This document shows positions 2,891 to 64,000 of a DNA stretch of 64,000 nt, piece by piece. Numbering within the stretch: the stretch's first letter is position 1; each line of letters starts with the position of its first letter. The DNA comes from Lampris incognitus. Its lineage: Eukaryota; Chordata; Actinopteri; Lampriformes; Lampridae. The stretch spans positions 56,222,856-56,286,855 of the forward strand of contig NC_079215.1 in the NCBI RefSeq assembly GCF_029633865.1. The letters are read 5' to 3'. The notes under the pieces were generated by a model that was not told where the DNA came from, ran no database searches, and saw nothing but the letters and a program-made list of their open reading frames with translations. The translations under genes and the position numbers were made by a program.

Positions 2891-3051
2891 ATCACTCATG
2901 TAAGCGACCTCTTCAGTCTCAACTGACTGCAGGTATCCCCACCCTTATAACGACCACAGCGACCTAAAACAACCGTTGTAACTCTAATTACATGGTCACG
3001 GCAATTTGCATATGAAACCGATCATTGGTTTGGGTCGTTAAGCCACTGTAT
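2891..3051. mobile_element. Penelope-like element terminal repeat, left part (interrupted)
   Basis: 2891-2950 is the reverse complement of the Penelope end seen at 51911-51970 (atcactcat..cctcttcagtctcaactgactgcagg). 2975-3051 is the forward form of the sequence at 51835-51912 (aactcta..catggtcacggcaatttgcatatgaaaccgatc). The terminal repeat is cut at 3051/3476 by the miniature LTR element, and resumes at 3476. Confidence 0.75.
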
Positions 3052-3107
3052 TGTAACGTGCATGGATAAGAAGACACGCTGGCCGCTGGCTGGCGGGTCT
3101 GACCCTT

Positions 3108-3161
3108 TAGTCTAGCGGTTAGCGATGCCTCCTGCAATGCGGGCGATACGGGTTCGCGTCC
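3108..3161 (+). promoter_or_regulatory. tRNA-like internal pol III promoter (A and B boxes) inside the 5' LTR
   Basis: A box tagtctagcggtt (3108-3120) fits TRGYNNANNNGG, and B box ggttcgcgtcc (3151-3161) fits GGTTCGANTCC with one change. Their 43-nt spacing is tRNA-like. The 3' LTR has the same boxes at 3375-3387 and 3418-3428. The anticodon arm is poorly paired, so this is tRNA-derived or tRNA-mimicking rather than a functional tRNA gene. Transcription is inferred only. Confidence 0.7.
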
Positions 3162-3209
3162 CGGCCGCGGCAGTTCCTGTGGTTGCGTTGTCCCCCGAAT
3201 TCGCTACAT

Positions 3210-3227
3210 TGGTGTCAGAAGTGGGAT
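3210..3227 (+). other. Primer-binding site complementary to tRNA-Leu
   Basis: tggtgtcagaagtgggat begins one base after the LTR. It is complementary over 18 nt to the CCA-bearing 3' end I recall for vertebrate tRNA-Leu of the CAG/CAA type (ATCCCACTTCTGACACCA). This establishes the strand of the element. Confidence 0.8.
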
Positions 3228-3475
3228 GGAGCGACCGTAAGGCTATCGGAAGTGTAGGCGCCCTGAGGCGTGAAGGAGCTAATATGCTTAAGCGCGGGGA
3301 CGCGCTTCCCGAAGGAGGGGGGTAGTGTAACGTGCATGGATAAGAAGACCTGCTGGCTCGCGGGTCTGACCCTTTAGTCTAGCGGTTAGCGATGCCTCCT
3401 GCGGTGCGGGCGATACGGGTTCGCTTCCCGGCCGCGGCAGTTCCTGTGGTTGCGTTGTCCCCCGAATTCGCTACA

Positions 3476-3601
3476 GTATTGTTTATAAGGGTGGGGGACA
3501 CCTGCAGTCGGTTGAGACCGAAGAGGTCACTTAGATGAGTGATGAAACGCTTCTCTCAATGCACGTTGTGTCCAGATGAACTGGTTCAACTTTGTGTGAC
3601 T
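3476..3601 (+). mobile_element. Penelope-like element terminal repeat, right part
   Basis: Resumes after the TRIM insertion: gtttataagggtgggg..cctgcagtcggttgagac..gatgagtgatgaaacg..ctcaatgcacgttgtgtccagatgaactg. It closely matches 51913-52017 of the Penelope copy at 50762-52017. Confidence 0.8.
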
Positions 3602-3928: not shown

Positions 3929-3960
3929 CTTACTTAATTGAAAACACTGCTGGAAGCAAC

Positions 3961-4056
3961 ATGTCGTACTGCTGTGTACCATCCTGCAACTCCTTTCAAA
4001 GAAGGGAAAGAGATACATCTGTATATATAAATATATATACACTAATCGTTCAATAG
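3961..4056 (+). pseudogene. Remnant of the THAP zinc-finger N-terminus of the transposase
   Basis: ATG at 3961 encodes MSYCCVPSCNS, the start of a THAP domain (first two zinc ligands of the C2CH motif). The frame then enters a TA-rich repeat and stops at 4054-4056. The expected FP, tryptophan and C-x2-H parts of THAP are missing and the frame does not match the downstream ORF. THAP-type DNA binding is therefore lost in this copy, either by deletion plus microsatellite growth or, less likely, through an intron I cannot delimit. Confidence 0.65.
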
Positions 4057-5210
4057 TGGATAGCTCTGTTCTGACACATCATCTTGATAACAGGAAAATG
4101 TGTGGATTTATATTGCTTCCCACATGTATGACATATCCTCATGTGTCCAGTGAGGTTTGGGTGACTCTACCTGATCATGACTACCACATGAAGCCCCTTT
4201 CTGTGGAAGACCAGCTTGACGCAGTAAAGAAACGCATCGCTTTCCTGGAGGACGAAAATAAAAAGCTGAAAAGTGAGCGTTTTGGTCTAGAACGCTTCCA
4301 GTGTGTGCCCAATCTGATCAGGTTTTACACTGGTTTTAAGGATTACCACACCCTCAAAGCACTCTTCCTAGCTTTACAGCCTACTGCAGAGTCCATGGTG
4401 CGATGGACTCAAATGCAAAGGAACAGCCATAACCTAGAACACATTTCTGTGTCTGGCTTCCATGCAGAGCATTTATCGCTGATTGATCAGTTTTTCCTGT
4501 TCTTGTGCCGTGTGAGGCAGGGCTTTTTTGCTCTGGATTTATCTGTACGATTCAATGTGTCGCCGACCACAGTCAGCAGGAACTGTACGACGTGGGCCAA
4601 CTATTTGCTCTTTATGTTAGGGACCCTCCCAATATGGCCTAGTAGAGCAGCAGTAGACGAGCTAATGCCACCAGTATTCAGGGAATTCTACCCAAACACA
4701 AGAGTGATACTAGACTGCACAGAGATCCGCATCGAGACAGCTAGTTCCAAGGTTTTGAACACCATGACATACTCCCATTATAAAAGTAACACTACACTGA
4801 AATCCCTAATTGGGATCACTCCCTCAGGGTCAGTTAGCCTGGTAAGTAATCTATACACAGGATGTATTTCTGATAAGGAGATAACTAAGAGGTCAGGTGT
4901 TCTGGACCTCTTAGAGTCAGGTGATGAGGTCGTGGCCGATAAGGGCTTCCTTATCAAAGACCTGCTCGATGAAATAGATGTAAAACTTGTCATCCCTGCA
5001 TTTTTAGGCCCAAGTGGACAGTTTAGCTGTAATGAGCTCACAGACACACAGAGTATTACTGGCTTGAGAATACATGTCGAACGGTCAATAAGACGCATAA
5101 AGGAGTACCACATTTTTGATGGAGTCATACCCCTTTCGCTAAGTGGAACAGTCAACCAACTGTGGACTGTGTGTGCACTCCTAACAAATTTTCAGGGACC
5201 ACTGATTTAA
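4056..5210 (+). CDS. ISL2EU/Harbinger-type DDE transposase (DDE_Tnp_4), N-terminus damaged
   Basis: An open frame of about 384 residues. Residues about 50-75 are charged and heptad-like (DQLDAVKKRIAFLEDENKKL), the coiled coil that normally follows THAP. A helix-turn-helix-like region (FNVSPTTVSRNCTTWANYL) precedes the catalytic fold. Catalytic residues are visible: first Asp in VILDCTEIRIE, second Asp in EVVADKGF, and Glu in HVERSIRRIKEYHIF. The C-terminal NQLWTVCALLTNFQGPLI is the family's usual ending. The enzyme would cut at the terminal repeats and insert at TA. The marked start is a GTG in an open frame; the true start was upstream in the THAP part, now out of frame. The catalytic domain looks intact, so the copy is a pseudogene mainly for loss of THAP. 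Confidence 0.88.
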   Translation: MDSSVLTHHLDNRKMCGFILLPTCMTYPHVSSEVWVTLPDHDYHMKPLSVEDQLDAVKKRIAFLEDENKKLKSERFGLERFQCVPNLIRFYTGFKDYHTLKALFLALQPTAESMVRWTQMQRNSHNLEHISVSGFHAEHLSLIDQFFLFLCRVRQGFFALDLSVRFNVSPTTVSRNCTTWANYLLFMLGTLPIWPSRAAVDELMPPVFREFYPNTRVILDCTEIRIETASSKVLNTMTYSHYKSNTTLKSLIGITPSGSVSLVSNLYTGCISDKEITKRSGVLDLLESGDEVVADKGFLIKDLLDEIDVKLVIPAFLGPSGQFSCNELTDTQSITGLRIHVERSIRRIKEYHIFDGVIPLSLSGTVNQLWTVCALLTNFQGPLI

Positions 5211-37128: not shown

Positions 37129-37239
37129 TGTAACCGGTTATTTTCTTGCCCGGTGCGGGATTCGATCCGACGTGTACTGCTCCACAAGGCGACATCACTA
37201 ACCGCTCGGATAAAGGCTCAGTATTATTAGTAGTTTACA
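37129..37239 (-). mobile_element. Solo LTR of TRIM family B, with tRNA-like boxes
   Basis: 111 bp, reverse complement running TGTAAACTACTAATAA...CCGGTTACA, with atga on each side (37125-37128, 37240-37243). The minus strand has A box tatccgagcggtt and B box like ggatcgaatcc. It matches the 5' LTR at 38124-38258 except that it lacks that copy's hairpin segment. The flank is low-complexity, so the duplication is only moderately convincing here. Confidence 0.78.
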
Positions 37240-37736: not shown

Positions 37737-38259
37737 ATACGACCGACGAGAGCGTTTCCTAAATTAGCGCCCCTACCGGCGGCAGGAGATATGCCACAGA
37801 TACTTTTCGCCTCTGCGCATTGTGGGTTTTTAAAGCAATTTGAGAACAGAAGGTGCGGTCAGTGCGATTTTGTGGAGTTTCGTCGTCTAGTGTAGTAACT
37901 AAGATTGCCACTGGCAGCATGTTTACCTATGAATAACCTTATAAGAGCTAACTCAGCTAGCGTAGACATTATAACCTCTATGTGACATTAAACTTAGCTT
38001 TTATTAATATTCGTTCTCGCGATAGTTTATGGAAGGAGACCGGAAGTGGCTGAAAACGCAACTATAGGTCGTAATAAGCTGCTTGTACAAACGACCTATG
38101 GGGTCGTTTTTTTTGTTTGTTTATGTAAACTACTAATAAGACACGTTAGCCCCTAGCTAACGGGTCTGACCCTTTAGCCGAGCGGTTAGCGATGTCGCCT
38201 TGTGGTGCAGTACATCCCGTATCGAATCCCGCACCGGGCAAAAAAATAACCGGTTACAT

Positions 38260-38277
38260 TGGTGGCAGCGGTGGGAT
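38260..38277 (+). other. Primer-binding site for another tRNA-Leu isoacceptor
   Basis: tggtggcagcggtgggat, one base after the LTR, is complementary to ATCCCACCGCTGCCACCA, the 3' end I recall for vertebrate tRNA-Leu (AAG/TAG type). It differs from family A's site at the bases that distinguish the two tRNA-Leu groups. Confidence 0.78.
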
Positions 38278-38350
38278 CCGGAAGTGTGCAGATCCTCAGC
38301 AGTCTCTTCGGAGCGCGGGAACAACAAAGCTTCCGGGAGAGGGTGACGAC

Positions 38351-38410
38351 TGTAATAAAACTAATAAGACCCGTTAGCCCCTAGCTAACGGGTCTTATTA
38401 GTAGTTTACA
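38351..38410. repeat. Perfect hairpin replacing the 3' LTR
   Basis: ctaataagacccgttagc and gctaacgggtcttattag pair over 18 bp around a 5-nt loop (cccta). The outer end is the reverse complement of the LTR start. Confidence 0.9.
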
Positions 38411-38666: not shown

Positions 38667-38823
38667 TGTAACGTGCATGGATAAGAGGACACGCTGGCCG
38701 CTGGCTCGCGGGCAGGACCCTTTAGTCGACTGGTTAACGTTGTCGCTTGCGGTGCAGGAGTTACGGGTTCGCGTCCCGGCCGCGGCAGTTCCTGTGGTTA
38801 CGCTGTCCCCCGAATTCGCTACA
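38667..38823 (+). mobile_element. Solo LTR of TRIM family A
   Basis: 157 bp, the same length as the 5' LTR at 3052-3208, from TGTAACGTGCATGG to GAATTCGCTACA, with atac duplicated at 38663-38666 and 38824-38827. B box ggttcgcgtcc is preserved; the A box is changed to tagtcgactggtt. A solo LTR forms by recombination between the two LTRs of one insertion. Confidence 0.88.
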
Positions 38824-39960: not shown

Positions 39961-40195
39961 TGAATTGGCCGCAGCGTCCTAAATGTACAGCTTGGCACAG
40001 GGCCGAGCGTGGAGGGAAACGCTCTGGCCACAGAAACTCAGGCTGTTTGATTTCTGTCATTAGAAATGAGATACATTTAAAAAAAAACGTTGTTGAAGTA
40101 CACATCCGACTCTGCAGGTGAAGCCTGGTCCCCCAGCAGAAGCAGCAACGTGGAGTTTGGGGTTTCTCTAGACTGCCGTCCATGTAGGACGAGCA
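39961..40195. other. No gene recognised
   Basis: Spacer upstream of the slc24a3 promoter, leading into the minisatellite. Confidence 0.5.
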
Positions 40196-40905
40196 GGTTC
40201 CTCTGCGCTGGAGGCCGCTCCTCTGAAGTTCCTCTGGTCTGGAGGCCGCTCCTCTGAGGTTCCTCTGGTCTGGAGGCCGTTCCTCTGAGGTTCCTCTGGT
40301 CTGGAGGCCGTTCCTCTGAGGTTCCTCTGGTCTGGAGGCCGCTCCTCTGAGGTTTCTCTGGTCTGGAGGCCGTTCCTCTGAGGTTCCTCTGGTCTGGAGG
40401 CCGCTCCTCTGAGGTTCCTCTGGTCTGGAGGCCGCTCCTCTGAGGTTCCTCTGAGGTTCCTCTGGTCTGGAGGCCGTTCCTCTGAGGTTCCTCTGGTCCG
40501 GAGGCCGTTCCTCTGAGGTTCCTCTGGTCTGGAGGCCGTTCCTCTGAGGTTCCTCTGGTCTGGAGGCCGCTCCTCTGAGGTTCCTCTGGTCTGAAGGCCG
40601 TTCCTCTGAGGTTCCTCTGGTCTGGAGGCCGTTCCTCTGAGGTTCCTCTGGTCCGGAGGCCGTTCCTCTGAGGTTCCTCTGGTCTGGAGGCCGTTCCTCT
40701 GAGGTTCCTCTGGTCTGGAGGCCGCTCCTCTGAGGTTCCTCTGGTCTGAAGGCCGTTCCTCTGAGGTTCCTCTGGTCTGGAGGCCGTTCCTCTGAGGTTC
40801 CTCTGGTCTGGAGGCCGTTCCTCTGAGGTTCCTCTGGTCTGGACGCTGTTCCTCTGAGGTTCCTCTGGTCTGGAGGCCGTTCCTCTGAGGTTCCTCTGGT
40901 CCGGT
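40196..40905. repeat. 31-bp minisatellite, 22 copies, with a 5-unit higher-order repeat
   Basis: Unit ggttcctctggtctggaggc plus cgttcctctga (31 bp). Variants (gctcc/gttcc, tctgg/tccgg, ctggagg/ctgaagg) recur in the order GTT, CCGG, GTT, GCT, GAAGG for units 9-13 and again for 14-18, an internal 155-bp higher-order period (tccgg at 40498 and about 40652; ctgaagg at 40591 and 40746). A 310-residue minus-strand ORF spans it because 31 is not a multiple of 3 and no frame has a stop; it is a repeat by-product. Confidence 0.95.
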
Positions 40906-42324
40906 GTGAAGCTGAGGGCAGGGTGTGGAGACGTCTCCATGGCCTGCTGCGGCGTGTTGTCCATGGACCTCACTACGAAGCTGTCAGCAAAACTAAATAA
41001 GGAGACCACAACCTCTCAGCTACACACTCCCGATGCTTCACGTCCCACCATGGAGTGCAATGGCAAGTTATGACCACGGCCAACACTTTATCTTAGCTAA
41101 TATTTATTTATTTGTTTTGATCGTTGGGCCTGAGGTTTCATATAAATAGCACTGGAAACTTTCCAGCAAGAATGGAAAAAGTGGCCAGGGCTCTAGGCAA
41201 TGGGTTTCATTGTGTTTTTAACCCTTTCAGCCGGGGGCCCGAAGACAACCCCAGACACAGAGAAGGGGTGGGGGGTGGGGGGGAGACGTGGGCTTCAAGG
41301 CTGACAGTCATATTCACAGAGTGACGATGATCCCATCAAATATTTTTACGTAGTCCATGGAAACCTTTTGAAAAACCTTTTAAATGTGTGAATTAAAAAA
41401 AAAAAAATTCACATCACTTCCCACGGACGTCCCACAAGGCAGCAAAGCCCACCGCCCACCCGGACGCGAGGAGGGCAGAAAGCTCGCCCGGCCTCGCTGG
41501 CTTGCAGAGGACGCTCGGACCCGGAGTTTACCAAACAAGATGAATTCCCAACCTCTCCGAGGCACACAAAAGAAAGGGAAGGGGAGGGGGAGGGGGAGGG
41601 GATGGGGGGGGCAACAAATTAAATCCAGTTAAATTGTTTTTCCATTGCCAGTGGGCCTGGCAAGGGACTGGCACACACACTAGATGTGAGATAAAGTTGT
41701 AGGGAAGACAAATGAGAAAGGCAGTGGCTTCAGATGTAACAGAATGCCTGGAATTTAACCCACTTTCCCAGGTCCAACTGACACCGTGCCCACGCCAGTG
41801 CAGTTTATCCATCACAGGAGGAGGGGAGGGGGGGGGGTCTCTCTCTTTCTAGTGTTTTGCTATAAAAGGTATTTTTATTGACAGATAGACCGGTATCCAA
41901 GTTTCAGACTCAACAAAGCAGTCCCGGGCCCTCTAGTGTTCCCGGTTTCCTTGTCCCCTTCTGAGATGTTATCAGTCGGGACTTTCTGCAGCCTCCCCTT
42001 CAGTAACCCAAAGGCCCCGATGGCCGCCTTCCCACAACCCCCACGTCTATAAAATCCAGCCCGCATGTGAAGTCTGCTGGGGAGCGGCATCGCAGGGACG
42101 GCAGCTCAGAGGACGGTTGTTGTTTTCAGCCCGTTTTGGAGCAGCGCTAGACTGTCAAGCTAGCTGGCTGGCAGACATATTTGGGTCACGTCTTCCCTCT
42201 CAGAGATCTCCAGAGCCTCGGCAGCAGCAGCAGCTCCTCAGCCCCTCCAGTTCCGCTCCACCCCAACATAGAGAAACCTCCACTCAGCACCTCGGCCGAG
42301 GGAGAGGAGGGAAGAGAGGGAGAA

Positions 42325-43697: not shown

Positions 43698-43781
43698 AAG
43701 GTTGGGACTGCCCCGGGGCTCGAACCCAGAACCTTCTTGCTGCGAGGCGGCCGCGCTAACCGCTGCGCCACCGTGCCGCCC
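43698..43781 (-). mobile_element. AFC-type SINE, tRNA-like head only
   Basis: Minus strand: ggcggcacggtggcgcagcg at 43781, ctcgcagcaagaaggttctg, then gggttcgagcccc. Confidence 0.8.
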
Positions 43782-44545: not shown

Positions 44546-44880
44546 GCGGGCGGCGCAGTGGTTAGCGCGGTCGCCTCACAGCAAGAAGGTCCCGGGTTCG
44601 AGCCCCGGGGTAGTCCAACCTTGGGGGCTGTCCCGGGTCGTCCTCTGTGAGGAGTTTGCATGTTGTCCCCGTGTCTGCGTGGGTTTCCTCCGGGTGCTCC
44701 GGTTCCCCCCCACAGTCCAAAGACATGTAGGTCAGGTGAATCGGCCTTACTAAATTGTCCCTAGGTATGAATATGTGGGTGTGATGGCCTGGCGGCCTGT
44801 CCAGGGTGTCTCCCCGCCTGCCGGGATAGGCTCCCGCCACCCTGAGAGCAGGATGAGCGATTCAGATAATGGATGAGTGA
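44546..44880 (+). mobile_element. AFC-type tRNA-SINE, near full length
   Basis: gcggcgcagtggttagcgcg (A box), gggttcgagccccg (B box), the body with atgtaggtcaggtgaatcgg and a tail gataatggatgag. A short deletion near 44818 removes the cccaatgact segment. Confidence 0.85.
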
Positions 44881-45550: not shown

Positions 45551-46903
45551 CGCTGTACTGTAATATTGATCATAGAATTGGCAGATGACCTGTCAGACAG
45601 AAGCACGGCCATGATGTTTCACTCCTTTCTGCAGTTTGAGTAGGGACGTGTTTGCTGCTGCACCGGCGTTCATCCTGGCCTGTCAAAGCACTTCAGCAGC
45701 TACACATGGAGTACATCTCCACCCGCGGTACAGAGGCAGTTAGTGTTGTGTAAACCGACTGTAAAACAATAACGGAGAAAAAGATCAGATTCCAGGTTTA
45801 ATGTTAGAGATCAGCACTCAGGTAGAAATTACAAATTGCCCCGTGAAAAGGTATCTTCAGCTAAGATGTTCCTTTTGGGGCACCACCCAAACTGACGGCG
45901 TCAACGGCGTTTACAGGGTGACGAGAGATGCCATCATCGCTGCTGTCACACTGGTCAGTTTTAAGTCTGAATGGGAGTTGGGTGGGGGGTTGAGACTGGG
46001 AAAGAAAGACAATGCTAAGGAGGGGGGGGGCGAGAGAGAGAGAGAGAGAAAGAAAGCAAGGACAAGAAGGGGGAGAAGGGGGACCAAATAGTGTAGTGTC
46101 ATTGATTCTAAGAATTAAGCAATGTTTTGTCACACACTGTTTATGTTCCCGTCCCACGTGTCCTTGTCCTAAACCGTTTCAGAGATCCACGGTGGTGACT
46201 GGGTGTTGTGTTGGCGATGGAGTCCCACATGTCCAATCCTTGAGAGGAGCTGCCAGGGACACCAGCCCCGGGCACAACATTCAGCGGCAGACCAAGAGGA
46301 CGTTGCTGGTTTCCAAACAAGAAGGGCGACGTCCACAATTAGGTGTCACGGTCGCTGAAGTCCCAAACGCCTTTCTTCAGGAAACCAGGCTCCCGGTCAC
46401 GTCGCCCAAATCGGAGTCTGCACAAAAGAAAAGAGTAATTTTGTTCTGGGGTATTTTAATACATTAGCTCATGAAACATAGCGGTGGTGCAGAGTTCGGC
46501 ACGCAGGATCTAATGGATAGACTAGAATACAATACACTTTGTCATTTTTACATACATACAATGAAATTCACTCTCTGCGTTTAACCATCCTAGCTGTGTA
46601 GCTAGGAGCAGTGGGCAGCCGCCGTGCAGCACCCGGGGAATGGTTTACCCTTTCCGGGTATTGACAGCGTGGTAGACTGTGCCCGGGGATTTGAATTCAG
46701 AGTTACCTTCTCCTAGCCTTTGCCTAAAGAGGCATCAACCCACAAGGCAGCAGGTGGATTTGAAATCAGAGTTCCCTTCTCCTATCCCAATGTGTTGACT
46801 GGACTGGGCACCATGGGAAGTACCATACAGGCATGAAGGAGGACCAGATCTATCAGTAGGGATGTCGTCCTTAGCCAAAGGGCCCTTGCTGAGGTAAGGT
46901 GCT
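45551..46903. other. No gene; LINE 3'-end-like piece at 46530-46640
   Basis: 46530-46640 (ctttgtcatttttacatac..tcctagctgtgtagctagga) resembles a fish LINE 3' end. GA and G runs occur near 46020-46050. Confidence 0.45.
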
Positions 46904-47373
46904 ACCCCTCTACAGCCTGCGGTTGCAGTTTAGCATCTTACCCAGGACGTACCCCTCTACAGCCTGCGGTTGCAGTTTAGTGTCTTACCCAGGACACACC
47001 CCTCTACAGCCTGCGGTTGCAGTTTAGTGTCTTACCCAGGACACACCCCTCTACAGCCTGCGGTTGCAGTTTAGTGTCTTACCCAGGATGTACCCCTCTA
47101 CAGCCTGCGGTTGCAGTTTAGTGTCTTACCCAGGACGTACCCCTCTACAGCCTGCGGTTGCAGTTTAGCATCTTACCCAGGATACACCCCTCTACAGCCT
47201 GCGGTTGCAGTTTAGCATCTTACCCAGGACACACCCCTCTACAGCCTGCGGTTGCAGTTTAGCATCTTACCCAGGACACACCCCTCTACAGCCTGCGGTT
47301 GCAGTTTAGCATCTTACCCAGGACACACCCCTCTACAGCCTGCGGTTGCAGTTTAGCGTCTTACCCAGGACGT
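46904..47373. repeat. 47-bp minisatellite, 10 copies
   Basis: Unit acccctctacagcctgcggt plus tgcagtttagcatcttaccc and aggacgt. The catc/tgtc and acgt/acac sites vary in blocks between copies. Confidence 0.95.
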
Positions 47374-47838
47374 AGGACGCAGGGCGCTAGGATGCAGAGG
47401 CATGTCAATGGATATGAACAATCTCCATAGGATTGATTTGAGAACGATCAGCTGACTTGTAGATGTTGTATCGGAAACGGTGGTAGCGGTTCCAAGTCTC
47501 GCCATACGATCCCTCGCTGTTTGCATCACAACAGAAGGGTGGAGGCAGCGAGAGCAGTGAAGATGTCGGAGGAGTATCACAAATTTCTCTCCTTGTTCGG
47601 AGGAATAAGCACGCAGCTCATGTTTAAGTCATGTAAACCAAACCTCGGAGAAAACCAACTCCCTCTTTAAATTATGCAGAGAAAGAGCCAAGCAAGTGAA
47701 CCCCTGTTTGACATCTTTCTCCCCTGCTTGCCCTCTGCACACACTTCAGAGAGCGCTGCCTGTGCAGTCCCCGGCTGCCCAACATTAAAGATTCAGGAGT
47801 AACTTTATTGTCCCACACACTCGTACATTTGGCTTGGG
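47374..47838. other. No gene recognised
   Basis: Spacer; no motifs. Confidence 0.5.
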
Positions 47839-50694: not shown

Positions 50695-50761
50695 CTGAGG
50701 GACCACAGCAGACAACGTCTGGGTGCATGCTCAATAACCCAGGTGAGAAAATTCAGAGAAG

Positions 50762-52017
50762 GTTGATTCAGTTCATCTGGACACGACGTTTATTGAGAGA
50801 AACATTCCGTCACTCATCTAAGTGACCGCTTCGGTCTCAACTGACTGCAGGTATCGCCACCCTTATAAACAATACAGTGGCATGGTGACCGAAACCAACG
50901 ACCAGTTTTCATATGCAAATTACCGTGACCATTAACTAGAGTTACAATGGCCATGTGTACTATTCACAGAGGACTGGGGAATAGTTGCAATCACAGCATT
51001 GTAAGATGGGGACAGATGTACTCTTATTGGCCAACTTGTATATCGAGGAAGTGGAAAATAGGGCTCTGATGTCCTATCCAGGGACACCAGCAAGCCATTG
51101 GTTCCGATTTGTGGACAACACCTGTGTTTGAGTCATCAGGACGCTGTACCACTGAGCTGACAACGTCCCCACCGACACAGCAGCCGGGGAAGGGGAGAAA
51201 CCCCACATTAAACAGGTCCTAGTTAAGTGTGGTTATCCTAACTGGGCGTTTGTCGAAGCCAGGAAGACGCCCAAACACCGCACCAACTGATCGAAGAGAG
51301 GAGGAGGACAACAGCTGTCTAAGTGTAAACCAGTGGTGATTCCATATGTGGCGGGAGTGTCGGAACAGTTGAGACGCGTATTTTCCAAACACCGTGTCCC
51401 TGTTGCTTTCAAACTCCAAACCACACTGCACCAGAAGTTGGCCCATCCCCAGGGATCGGGTTCCCCGGCACCAACAGAGCGATATAGTGTACACTGTTAA
51501 GTGCCAGGAGGATTGCTGTAACTTGTACATTGGAGAAACCAAACGGATGCTGGCCAAGAGGATGGCACAACACAGAAGAGCTAACACGTCAGACCAGGAC
51601 TCCACAGTCTACACCCATCTACAGGCCAGTGGCCACTCTTTCAAGGAGGAGGATGTGCACATCCTTGATAGGGAGGAATGCTCGTTTGAACGGGGAGTCA
51701 AAGAGGCCATCTATGAGAAGAGGGAACAACCGTCTCTGAACCGGGGGGGGGGGGGCTAAGAGTACATCTGTCACTATCTTACAGTGCTGTGATTGCAAAC
51801 ATTCTCCAATCCTCTGTGAATAGTACACATGGCCATTGTAACTCTAGTTAATGGTCATGGCAATTTGCATATGAAACCGATCATCGGTTTGGGTCGTTAT
51901 GCCACTGTACTGTTTATAAGGGTGGGGATACCTGCAGTCAGTTGAGACTGAAGAGGTCATTTGGATGAGTGACGAAACGTTTTTCTCAATAAACGTGTCC
52001 AGATGAACTGATTCAAC
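50762..52017 (+). mobile_element. Penelope-like retroelement with inverted terminal repeats, internally deleted
   Basis: The left terminal repeat (about 50762-51020) is the reverse complement of the right one (about 51760-52017); both include cctgcagtcagttgagac and tttgcatatgaaaac/accg-type segments. Between them lies the 3' part of the PLE ORF: LYIEEVENRALMSYPG and WFRFVDNTCV (reverse-transcriptase active-site region, about 51030-51115), then KPHIKQVLVKCGYPNWAF (across a shift, about 51190-51255), and the GIY-YIG domain. It lies in the last dtd1 intron. Confidence 0.85.
51030..51759 (+). pseudogene. Penelope reverse transcriptase / GIY-YIG remnant
   Basis: The active-site box reads FVDN where PLEs have FVDD, so one catalytic Asp is lost, and a stop follows soon. 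A deletion joins this to the connector and to SEQLRRVFSKHRVPVAFKLQ. A frameshift near 51450-51480 precedes SDIVYTVKCQEDCCNLYIGE and TKRMLAKRMAQHRR, an intact-looking GIY-YIG nuclease ending in EKREQPSLNR. The nuclease half is closely similar to the copy at 9506-9832. Confidence 0.85.
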
Positions 52018-52331
52018 TTTCTGTGAGTCACAGCAGACAATAGAACCCCTTTCACAAAAATGTATATTTTCTCTTTTACTGAAGAAATAATCCTGAAAAA
52101 TGTTCATTCTAGTTTGACTTATCGACACCTATGGTGGTGCAGGTAATTGCAGTGGTGTTTAACAACCGCATATCCCAGTGATCTATGTGAAATGAAACGG
52201 TCACCAGTGTTGCTGTGTCAGCAGTTTCCTCACCACTGAAAAACACAAAAACAAAATATGGGTGAACCTGGGTTTTAATTACCATTGTTAATATCTGTTG
52301 GTGAGGTAATCTGAATATTTGTGGATTAGCT
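52018..52331. other. dtd1 intronic spacer, no gene
   Basis: AT-rich; contains the left target copy of the next SINE. Confidence 0.5.
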
Positions 52332-60712: not shown

Positions 60713-61492
60713 TGAAGTGTAGTGATCATTATTCATGTCAGAACCTAGAGTTGAACCCTCTGAAGGTTTCTTGGGTGCAATTAAAATAAACACATATCAT
60801 TAGAGGTACCTAATACCTGACAGGTACACATGCTTTCCACTCACATCCAAGCAGCTCTTACACATTTCTTTAGTCACTCGATCAAAAAATAGTACTTGGG
60901 ATTGTTATGTCAAAACCTGTGTTGGTGAAAGCATCCCTGATCAAGTCAGCAAAGATGACCTCAGTCAGCAGGACCAGCACTCTTCTCTGATGGTGCTGCG
61001 TGAGCACACACCCTCATCTATTCTCTCCTCCTCTGGAGCTATTCTAGAACGTCATATGATCACTTCAATGAGGCTACTGTGATGACTGCGTACACTGCCA
61101 CTCTCTCTCACCCCCCCCCCCCACCACCACACACACACACACACACACACACAACCATTCTGAGCTTTACACAGTGAGGCTAGTCAATGCCTTGGGTTAC
61201 ACCACCTCTCTCAGTCTCTCTTTCTATTACGGTCCATAAAACACGTCACTAGAGGAATATATATGTAGGTATGCCATCGCTCACAGGACGACTGAGAAGA
61301 ATTCACAAAAAAATGACTGTAAACACAGCTAGTAAAACTTTCACAGTAGCCAATAAATATTCATGAAGTGAGTGTCACGTTAAAAAAACGCAACATTGCA
61401 TAAGATGCTGCATTATTCATGCAGCACGAGTCAGACACAAAAAAAATGTGTCATCCCCACGTGAACCCAGCCTGTGGTGGTGCCAAACTACC
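60713..61492. other. No gene; poly-C/CA run near 61110-61152
   Basis: Simple repeats and unique sequence without coding signal. Confidence 0.5.
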
Positions 61493-62765
61493 GCCTCATT
61501 TTATACTGTAACATCATGTAAATAAACCACTACCTCACTTTATACTGTAACATCATGTAAATAAGCTACCGCCTCACTTTATACTGTAACATCATGTAAA
61601 TTAACTACCGCCTCACTTTATTCTGTAACATCATGTAAATAAACTACCGTCCCACTTTATACTGTAACATCATGTAAATAAACTACCGTCCCACCTTATA
61701 CTGTAACATCATGTAAATAAACTACCTTCCCACTTTATACTGTAACATCATGTAAATAAACTACCGTCCCACCTTATACTGTAACATCATGTAAATAAAC
61801 TACCGTCCCACCTTATACTGTAACATCATGTAAATAAACTACCGTCCCACCTTATACTGTAACATCATGTAAATAAACTACGGTCTCACTTTATAATGTA
61901 ACATCATGTAAATAAACTACCGTCCCACCTTATACTGTAACATCATGTAAATAAACTACGGTCTCACTTTATACTGCAACATCATGTAAATAAACTACCG
62001 TCCCACTTTATACTGTAACATCATGTAAATAAACTACCGTCCCACCTTATACTGTAACATCATGTAAATAAACTACGGTCTCACTTTATACTGCAACATC
62101 ATGTAGATAAACTACCGTCTCACTTTATACTGTAACATCATGTAAATAAACTACTGTCCCACTTTATAATGTAACATCATGTAATGTCACATCATGTAAA
62201 TAAACTACCATCTCACTTTATAATATAATATCATGTAAACAAACTACCGCCCCACTTTATAATGTAACATCATGTAATGTCACATCATGTAAATAAACTA
62301 CCATCTCACTTTATAATGTAACATCATGTAAATAAACTACCATCTCACTTTATAATGTAACATCATGTAAATAAACTACCGTCTCACTTTATACTGTAAC
62401 ATCATGTAAATAAACTACCATCCCACTTTATAATGTAACATCATGTAAATAAACTACCGTCTCACTTTATACTGTAACATCATGTAAATAAACTACCATC
62501 CCACTTTATAATGTAACATCATGTAAATAAACTATCGTCTCATTTTATAATGTAACATCATGTAACTAAACTACCGTCTCACTTCATACTGTAACATCAT
62601 GTAAATAAACTACCGCCTCATTTTGTAATGTAACATCATGTAAATAAACTACCACCTCACTTTATAATGTAACATCATGTAAATAAACTACCGTCTCACT
62701 TTATAATGTAACATCATGTAAATAAACTACCGTCTCACTTTATAATGTAACATCATGTAAATAAA
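61493..62765. repeat. 39-bp minisatellite, about 32 copies
   Basis: Unit catcatgtaaataaactacc plus gtctcactttataatgtaa, with block-wise variants (gtcccacctt, ggtctcactt, ccatctcactt). Two units carry an extra catcatgtaatgtca piece (about 62170 and 62270). Each unit contains AATAAA and GTAAATA. Confidence 0.95.
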
Positions 62766-62839
62766 ATGGAGTGGGAGAGGCTCTCTTCACACACAGCCAA
62801 ATGGTTCAGACAGACAGACCGGCCGATAGATAGATAGTT

Positions 62840-64000
62840 TACAAGGCCGGTGGAATTTGTTTTCGGAACAATATCTACAAACTCTGCAGCACAACACATA
62901 CATGTACAACAGCAAACACTCCACATATCATGAAAATGCAGTGATACAGAACACATTACACACAACTATACATACAATAGGTGAACGGTATACATGCATA
63001 TGCATATGTACACCAGTGGTGTGTGAGGAGGGGACTAGAGGGAGGAGTTCAGAGTCCTGATAACTAGGGGGAAAAAGCTGTTTGTGAAGTGTTTAGTCTT
63101 AGTGGACGTGACCTGTAGTGCCTCCCTGAGGGAAGGAGCTGGAAGAGGTGTTGAGCAGGATGTGAGGGGTCGGAGATGATCTTCTTTGCTCACTTTACAG
63201 TCCGGTGATTGTGTAGAAATTCAACTGACGGGAGTGGGTTGCCTATGATTTTGGATGCCTTGTTGACAATCCGCTGCAGTTTTTTCATGTTCGACTGTCC
63301 ATGCTGCCGTACCATACTGTAATAGAAGATGTTATGATGGGCTCAGTGATGGGTGAGTAGAACAGAACAAGAAGCTGCTGTTTGAGCCGGTATTTTTTAA
63401 ATTGCATAAGGAAGTAAAGTCATTGTTGAGCTTCTGTAATGATATGTTCATTATTAGCTTTCCACTTCAGGTTATTGCGGATGTATGTTCTGTGGAATTC
63501 AAAAGAGTCGGTGGTGGTGATGGGATCTCTGTCTACTTGTATGGGTGTTTTGGGATTTGGCATGCATCGGAAGTCAATAATGAATTGCTGGGCTTTGTCT
63601 GTATTAAGCAGGAGGTCATTGTTTGCGTACCAAGTGACAGCTTGGTCCACTTCAATGCAGTACTGAGTTTCATCACTGTTGGCGATGAGGCCTATGGTTG
63701 TCACCGGTGTATTTCATTATTTGTACAGAACTGTGCATGGATGTTAAGTGGGTGGTGTAACATGAGAAGAGCCAGGGGGAGAGAACACAGCACTGAGAAG
63801 CTCCTGTACTGAGGGTAAAAGGGTGTTTGGTTAGGTTATTAACCTTCAACCTCTGTGGCCTGTTCCACAGGAAGTTCTGAATCCAGTGGCATATGGCTGG
63901 GTCAATGTTCATGTCCAAGAGTATGGTAAAGAGTTTGAGCAGGTCAGTGGAGCTCAAGGTGGAACTAAAGTCTATGAACAAGAAGCATGTGTAGATGTTT
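62840..64000 (-). pseudogene. L2-group LINE, third subfamily, running off the window end
   Basis: The minus strand reads MFIDFSSTLSSTDLLKLF, LWNRPQRLKVNNLTKHPFTL and STGASQCCVLSPWLFSCYTT (reverse-transcriptase motifs with Q-G-C changed to Q-C-C), then DQAVTWYANNDLLLNTDKAQ, IIDFRCMPNPKTPIQVD and, in the 3' part, VRQHGQSNMKKLQRIVNKAS-like residues. The likely 3' UTR is 62840-63060. Several frameshifts. Confidence 0.78.

Follow-up and report, generated by a model that had tools for sequence, protein, structure and literature searches.

A short LTR retrotransposon assigned to Helenus in Lampris incognitus, and insertions whose two LTRs differ in subtype

Within a 64,000-nucleotide stretch of the Lampris incognitus genome (the window), a 424 bp unit carries the ends, primer site and purine tract of an LTR retrotransposon, and each of its terminal repeats contains sequences that resemble the internal promoter of a tRNA gene. 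What kind of element is this, which polymerase is likely to transcribe it, and how is it copied? An earlier note on this DNA had read it as a TRIM with a tRNA-type promoter motif in a fish and knew of no established description. The anatomy supports that reading, but the class is not new: TRIMs with tRNA-derived LTRs were named Helenus by Kojima in 2024 (PMC10886601). We found no description of such a class beyond that paper in the literature (titles and abstract openings). The window element is almost certainly a Helenus-type LTR retrotransposon, and the explanation that best covers the whole, a Helenus member with a tRNA-type pol III promoter in its LTRs, is very probable. We describe here either a further Helenus family or a further host of the class, together with insertions whose paired LTRs do not match.

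The element, its insertion site and its relatives in the window

The element, a member of what we call family A, occupies positions 3052-3475 and consists of a 5' LTR, an interior and a 3' LTR (Table 1). The structural description in the earlier note holds throughout. The LTRs of about 150-157 bp with TG..CA ends were found as repeats of 157 and 150 bp that differ by four substitutions and 7 nt in length; the proposed tRNA-Leu primer-binding site (PBS) matches the complement of a tRNA-Leu-CAA 3' end at 18 of 18 positions; the purine tract (PPT) lies at 3311-3322; and the 4 bp target duplication is GTAT on both sides. The interior, which terminates in GAAGGAGGGGGGTAG, is 117 bp long and, as had been claimed, noncoding. 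It belongs to a 66-codon open frame that looks accidental and is open in 27 of 40 genome copies and in 57 of 1000 shuffles. Most changes in the interiors of the 40 copies fall in four columns, and three of these changes are found mainly in the window copy; there is thus no sign of a gene, and a coding interior was rejected. The U3 part of the 5' LTR is predicted to form a hairpin, but the prediction is weak, as 6 of 200 shuffles folded equally well.

The element sits in an older interspersed repeat, and two paralogs of that repeat in the window, at 50753-50950 (85% identical) and 51833-52026 (88%), span the junction uninterrupted, with a single GTAT and a single GTAC, respectively. The empty site is therefore directly seen. 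Right beside the element, positions 3942-5210 hold a 422-codon open frame with DDE_Tnp_4 and HTH_Tnp_4 domains, whose closest relative is an Anguilla protein (75% identical). The window also contains tandem repeats at 61380-62918 (39 bp unit), 40102-41022 (31 bp) and 46809-47466 (47 bp), and a weak GIY-YIG match at 51373-51759 with copies of the element's host repeat close by; this match may be part of a Penelope-like element.

Table 1. Positions of the element, its parts and its relatives in the window
Feature	Position	Strand	Remark
Older interspersed repeat hosting the element	2891-3543	.	inverted arms 2891-2950 and 3483-3543
Left target site duplication, GTAT	3048-3051	.	empty site in paralogous repeats
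5' LTR, 157 bp, TGTAAC...CTACA	3052-3208	+	subtype A1 with extra 7 nt unit
Predicted hairpin, U3 part of 5' LTR	3072-3100	+	weak; just 5' of the tRNA-like stretch
A box TAGTCTAGCGGT, 5' LTR	3108-3119	+	0/500 shuffles for A+B pair
B box GGTTCGCGTCC, 5' LTR	3151-3161	+	
Interior, 117 bp	3209-3325	+	no recognized gene
tRNA-Leu-CAA primer site (PBS)	3210-3227	+	interior bases 2-19; 18/18
Purine tract (PPT) GAAGGAGGGGGG	3311-3322	+	followed by TAG, then the 3' LTR
3' LTR, 150 bp, begins TGTAAC, ends CTACA	3326-3475	+	without 7 nt unit
A box, 3' LTR	3375-3386	+	box-pair shuffle test
B box GGTTCGCTTCC, 3' LTR	3418-3428	+	box-pair shuffle test
Right target site duplication, GTAT	3476-3479	.	
Solo LTR, family B	37129-37239	-	TCAT both sides
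Family B copy	38124-38410	+	TTTA both sides
Family B copy, 5' LTR	38124-38258	+	
Family B copy, interior	38259-38350	+	18/18 tRNA-Leu-AAG primer site
Family B copy, 3' end	38351-38410	+	abnormal 60 nt fold-back
Solo LTR, family A	38667-38823	+	ATAC both sides; LTR-subtype mosaic by eye

Three more insertions, of family A and of its sister family B, lie within the same 64 kb, and all four of the recognized insertions carry exact 4 bp duplications. Weak LTR-profile matches at 43704-43764 (E 0.017) and 44557-44613 (E 0.55) were left out of this count. Family B is itself Helenus-like, and its tRNA-like stretch is most like tRNA-His-GTG. A genome search for family B, in which the best 40 of 2445 candidates were scored, yielded copies L049-L067. 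A direct LTR pair was present in 17 of 20 family B loci, and the duplications were exact in 7 of 19 scored loci, or in 8 of 17 units in a second scoring, at targets that are not confined to a central TA (CTGG, ACAA and CTTG were seen). Short matches in the family B search had hinted that the fold-back 3' end of the window copy is a family trait, but other B copies have ordinary 3' LTRs, so this was rejected. In three of 29 family-A loci (L077, L096 and L079) the start of an LTR stands inverted at the right end; the duplication is kept in L077 and L096 and not in L079. The inverted right ends with a kept duplication (38351-38410, L077 and L096) look like products of self-primed, or snap-back, reverse transcription.

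The closest named relatives of the transposase and LINE proteins in the window are from teleosts (75% and 66% identical). A tree built from a single RAG1 exon groups the host with the euteleosts relative to two cyprinids (support 0.967) and places it outside the acanthomorphs that were sampled (support 0.921). The tree holds 19 named vertebrates out of 69 hits; its sampling is thin, because the search took in proteins of up to 1038 aa and scored the best 7995 candidates.

Genome copies, promoter motifs and a possible Gypsy partner

We searched the genome (1.48 Gb in 537 contigs) with the window element. Scoring the best 40 of 1646 candidates gave 44 matches, the window copy among them, that each span at least 420 of the 424 bases and are 91-100% identical to the element; a comparison of flanks showed that the further near-full-length copies occupy independent sites. 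The full LTR-interior-LTR copies with target duplications that the earlier note had asked to look for are present: 30 of 40 family-A loci (window copy included) have an exact 4 bp duplication. Pairing the flanks of mismatched loci gave 412 exact matches in 1560, a control value raised by the strong target preference. Of 105 family-A loci in total (two fetched twice), 64 contain a unit with an exact duplication, and 62 of these are distinct by their flanks. Their duplications have a central TA in 61 cases, 31 being ATAT, with TGGT (L113) as the sole exception. Family A thus shows an unusually strong NTAN integration preference that family B does not share. The primer site matches at 18/18 positions in 31 of the 40 copies, at 17/18 in eight and at 5/18 in one. 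We found no match to the family-A element in IMG/VR, in GTDB contigs (exact 25- and 23-base patterns) or in phages.

At four loci in this set, neighboring matches share one LTR, giving the order LTR-interior-LTR-interior-LTR. Over all samples, LTR-sharing tandem arrays were observed at L011, L029, L043, L100, L107, L109 (four LTRs) and L120; L118 was dropped from this group, as it consists of two elements 7 nt apart. A fixed rule of a 157 bp 5' LTR and a 150 bp 3' LTR was also rejected as largely an effect of the 157/150 query: among the 40 copies fetched with that query, the 7 nt unit is missing at the 3' end only in 27, while an interior-only sample has it at the 5' end only in 4 of 16 and the reverse in none, the class scored as lacking it covering other deletions too.

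Each LTR had been said to contain an A box and a B box at tRNA spacing. The two boxes lie 43 nt apart in both window LTRs, with two mismatches in total to the consensus. Dinucleotide shuffles equaled the pair in 0 of 500 cases for LTR1, for LTR2 and for the family B solo LTR, in 7 of 500 for the family A solo LTR and in 2 of 500 for the family B 5' LTR. Alignment scores to tRNAs exceeded the best of 500 shuffles in LTR1 (47 versus 39), LTR2 (49 versus 40) and the B solo LTR (49 versus 38), tied with it in the A solo LTR (41 versus 41) and fell below it in the B 5' LTR (36 versus 37). Rfam detected no tRNA in the element, even with the threshold at E<=10, and ARAGORN found no tRNA gene there. 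"tRNA-like" therefore refers to promoter boxes and local similarity and not to a cloverleaf.

Neither TTTT nor AATAAA/ATTAAA occurs in the 40 family-A elements or in the 18 units of a second sample (two loci are common to both), and the window copy contains no TATA[AT]. TTTT is also missing from 225 of 500 shuffles, which makes its absence weak evidence; about 2.3 gains of TTTT would be expected in 40 copies if each had some 12 private changes (an assumed figure). Beyond the window element, the first T-run on the plus strand comes after 234 nt; transcription by pol III would therefore continue into flanking DNA. We infer use of the LTR promoter by pol III from these motifs, and transcription mainly by pol III is reasonably likely.

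Gypsy-type integrase domains are abundant in the genome (150 matches scored of 20572 candidates, many equal in score), in open frames of up to 2015 aa. Two such loci were examined over 4 kb upstream each: at L098, the region upstream of the 2015 aa frame contains the identical 18 nt primer site (18/18), and at L099 no such site was seen. Apart from the PBS, the L098 piece has nothing significant in common with the element. The L098 site fits a Gypsy partner, although a common primer tRNA alone is no proof of mobilization. Movement by a Gypsy element is probable; that the particular Gypsy family sampled here is responsible is unlikely. We propose that RNA polymerase III would initiate at about position 48-50 in the 5' LTR and, because no TTTT terminator lies inside any counted family-A copy, would read through the 3' LTR into flanking DNA; that this RNA would enter particles of a Gypsy element; that tRNA-Leu would prime its reverse transcription; and that Gypsy integrase would insert the product.

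Two other accounts of the element were weighed against this proposal. A and B boxes at tRNA spacing in short, GC-rich, noncoding units would fit an ordinary tRNA-derived SINE, mobilized by a LINE and present by chance twice in tandem. Against this, the element has TG..CA LTR ends with a PBS and a purine tract, its 4 bp duplications lie at a preferred NTAN target, unlike the variable duplications of LINE type, and the copies examined have neither the A-rich or LINE-derived tail nor the LINE-type duplications of SINE2 elements. The earlier note had taken A-tailed copies that stop inside the LTR as the mark of a SINE; none of the four window copies is of this kind, and the best 40 genome loci by score cover almost the whole element, although genome searches that return the best-scoring copies are no census and a score-ranked list cannot show truncated copies to be absent. 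We rejected the SINE account, which is extremely improbable, on the element's ends, its duplications and the copies examined. The other account accepts the TRIM and gives it an ordinary pol II LTR promoter, the tRNA-like stretch being a roleless relic of a SINE insertion. It draws on the lack of a cloverleaf and of an Rfam tRNA match, and on the B box of family A, which has C where the consensus has A. Against it, the boxes recur in families A and B despite diverged surroundings, polyadenylation motifs are missing from the elements counted above and TATA[AT] from the window copy, and four of six LTRs with a single subtype change (described below) switch at 42-49, the expected pol III start, a point that is weaker because three of the four have the same arrangement and may go back to one inherited chimera. 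We consider a pol II promoter improbable and retain the tRNA-type pol III promoter as the preferred account.

Insertions with LTRs of unlike subtype

Standard reverse transcription gives identical LTRs, as set out in the available text of PMC5668417. We compared the LTR subtypes of single insertions that have exact duplications. To avoid choosing copies by their LTRs, we searched with the interior only (best 40 of 1220 scored) and examined 29 non-window loci. Their interiors are almost the same, which is in part an effect of ranking the list by interior. At 24 of the 29 loci, the interior is distinguished from that of the window copy by exactly three sites, the same in each; L097 differs at these and one more, and L069, L070, L077 and L096 differ at two of the three, with changes of their own in L077 and L096. 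Directly repeated LTRs are present at both ends in 17 of the 29 loci, with exact duplications in 15 of the 17. Five of these 15 units (L078, L081, L085, L087 and L088) have LTRs of different subtypes in at least one segment. By comparison, mixed LTRs occur in 0 of 28 in the sample for which the complete window element (A1/A1) served as query.

A search with L087 (best 40 of 5171 scored; 20 loci fetched) gave 21 units in 19 loci. In all 12 units with exact duplications, the 5' LTR ends as A1 type and the 3' LTR as A2 type, by segment. Their LTRs diverge by 9.9-25.5% and their interiors by 3.4-6.8% from that of the window copy, of which up to 2.6% is due to the window copy's own changes. In seven of the 12, the whole LTRs are of different segment type (111/222); the reciprocal pair 211/122 was not seen among them. 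This sample was chosen for the A1/A2 arrangement and so demonstrates its recurrence at independent sites, not its frequency. In a further sample, obtained with the interior plus the 3' LTR, L106 has A2 at the 5' end and A1 at the 3' end, with ATAT on both sides, and six of eight exact-duplication units have the 7 nt unit at the 5' end only.

Across samples, including those chosen by query, 18 single insertions with exact duplications have unlike 5' and 3' subtypes (L078, L081, L085, L087, L088, L106, L116, L117, L119, L123, L125, L127, L128, L129 and L132-L135); L040 and L110, which are mosaics of one main type, were left out. The LTRs of the mixed insertions differ more than their interiors do. 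At diagnostic sites, six LTRs show one clear subtype change: at 42-49 in the 5' LTRs of L081, L119 and L135 and the 3' LTR of L134, at 65-71 in L127 and at 81-90 in L088. The changes in L081, L119 and L135 are the same arrangement, perhaps one inherited chimera, and several mosaic 3' LTRs perhaps represent a further subtype. Unlike LTRs also occur side by side in arrays, as L120 reads 222-211-222 and the LTRs of L107 are with, without and with the 7 nt unit. In a nearest-partner test, an element's own LTRs were only slightly closer to each other than to those of other elements, a result that we do not use as proof because a star-like family would give the same.

The mixed insertions with exact duplications run against the rule that the LTRs of an insertion start out identical. 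We found no account of such insertions in the literature, only general precedents. Bursts of Onsen in Arabidopsis produce recombinant LTRs that are mostly consistent with the first template switch (available text of PMC5668417), and Triticeae template-switching complexes carry three LTRs, with duplications (available text of PMC1950507). Both accounts, as far as those texts go, state identical LTRs or identical outer LTRs, whereas some single insertions here have unlike ones.

Possible sources of the mixed LTRs are intermolecular plus-strand transfer, jump-free copying of an array transcript, array contraction and cDNA-driven conversion. The last two act after insertion, and a post-insertion origin, by gene conversion or by contraction of an array through LTR recombination, has in our judgment an even chance of being correct. 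Arrays with unlike LTRs exist (L120 and L107), their contraction leaves the outer duplications intact, some single LTRs are themselves mosaic, and there are precedents in the accessible parts of two reports, for ectopic and cDNA-driven conversion (PMC4558846) and for array dynamics (PMC7215508). Two observations speak against it: the 111/222 difference over whole LTRs in seven of 12 units, and the absence of the reciprocal 211/122 from the 12. Each carries less weight because a 111/222 query had selected these units.

Formation of the mixed LTRs during reverse transcription, by a second replication route of the family that leaves its two LTRs unlike, is somewhat less probable. In the RNA of an array, a purine tract would lie to the left of each LTR-interior-LTR stretch and a primer site to its right; if pol III reads through LTRs and arrays, an insertable copy could arise by reverse transcription with no strand jump. 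Alternatively, many short RNAs might share a particle, so that plus-strand transfer would often take place between molecules. By either route, a single insertion would have an exact duplication but LTRs of two different subtypes. If mixed LTRs do arise in this way, TRIMs driven by pol III would offer a natural way to test how strand transfer and LTR identity depend on the points at which transcription begins and ends, and such elements could not be dated by the divergence of their LTRs.

Comparison with known elements

Cassandra of plants and Ajax of nemerteans are TRIMs whose LTRs each contain a promoter of pol III type, which derives from 5S rRNA, in contrast to the tRNA-type motif of the Lampris element; Rfam gave no 5S match in the window or the element. 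Cassandra also makes tandem arrays, according to the available part of PMC7215508. The ta-TRIM of Echinococcus and Taenia is another animal TRIM; the accessible text of PMC4558846 mentions no tRNA-type promoter and discusses a possible autonomous partner along with the conversion noted above.

Helenus elements measure 311-1263 bp, and their animal families give 4 bp duplications; vertebrate members use tRNA-His, tRNA-Leu or tRNA-Lys as primer, the similarity of the PBS points to Gypsy, with movement probably by Gypsy elements, and tandem arrays of LTR-11_DR are reported (PMC10886601). Transcription of Helenus by pol III is unproven there too (PMC10886601). In the anatomical features compared, the Lampris element corresponds: it is short (424 bp) and contains no coding region, only the chance-like 66-codon frame; its LTRs have tRNA-derived sequence with A and B boxes, if no covariance-model tRNA match; it has a PPT and a PBS (Leu-CAA, 18/18 in the window copy and at least 17/18 in 39 of 40 copies); and its 4 bp duplications are exact in 30 of 40 loci and in 15 of 17 LTR pairs, with an empty site besides. 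With the fish families related to LTR-11_DR it has in common TRIM size, A/B-box LTRs, PBS, PPT, tRNA-Leu priming, 4 bp duplications, a suspected Gypsy partner, high copy number and tandem arrays, a comparison made by features and not by consensus sequence. It differs in its mixed-LTR insertions, of which there is no mention in the available text of PMC10886601, and in its host. The chordate hosts tabulated for Helenus are Latimeria, sturgeon, paddlefish, Cypriniformes, a catfish and milkfish (PMC10886601), and to this class, known since 2024, Lampris adds a multicopy family in a euteleost lineage that is missing from the published table.
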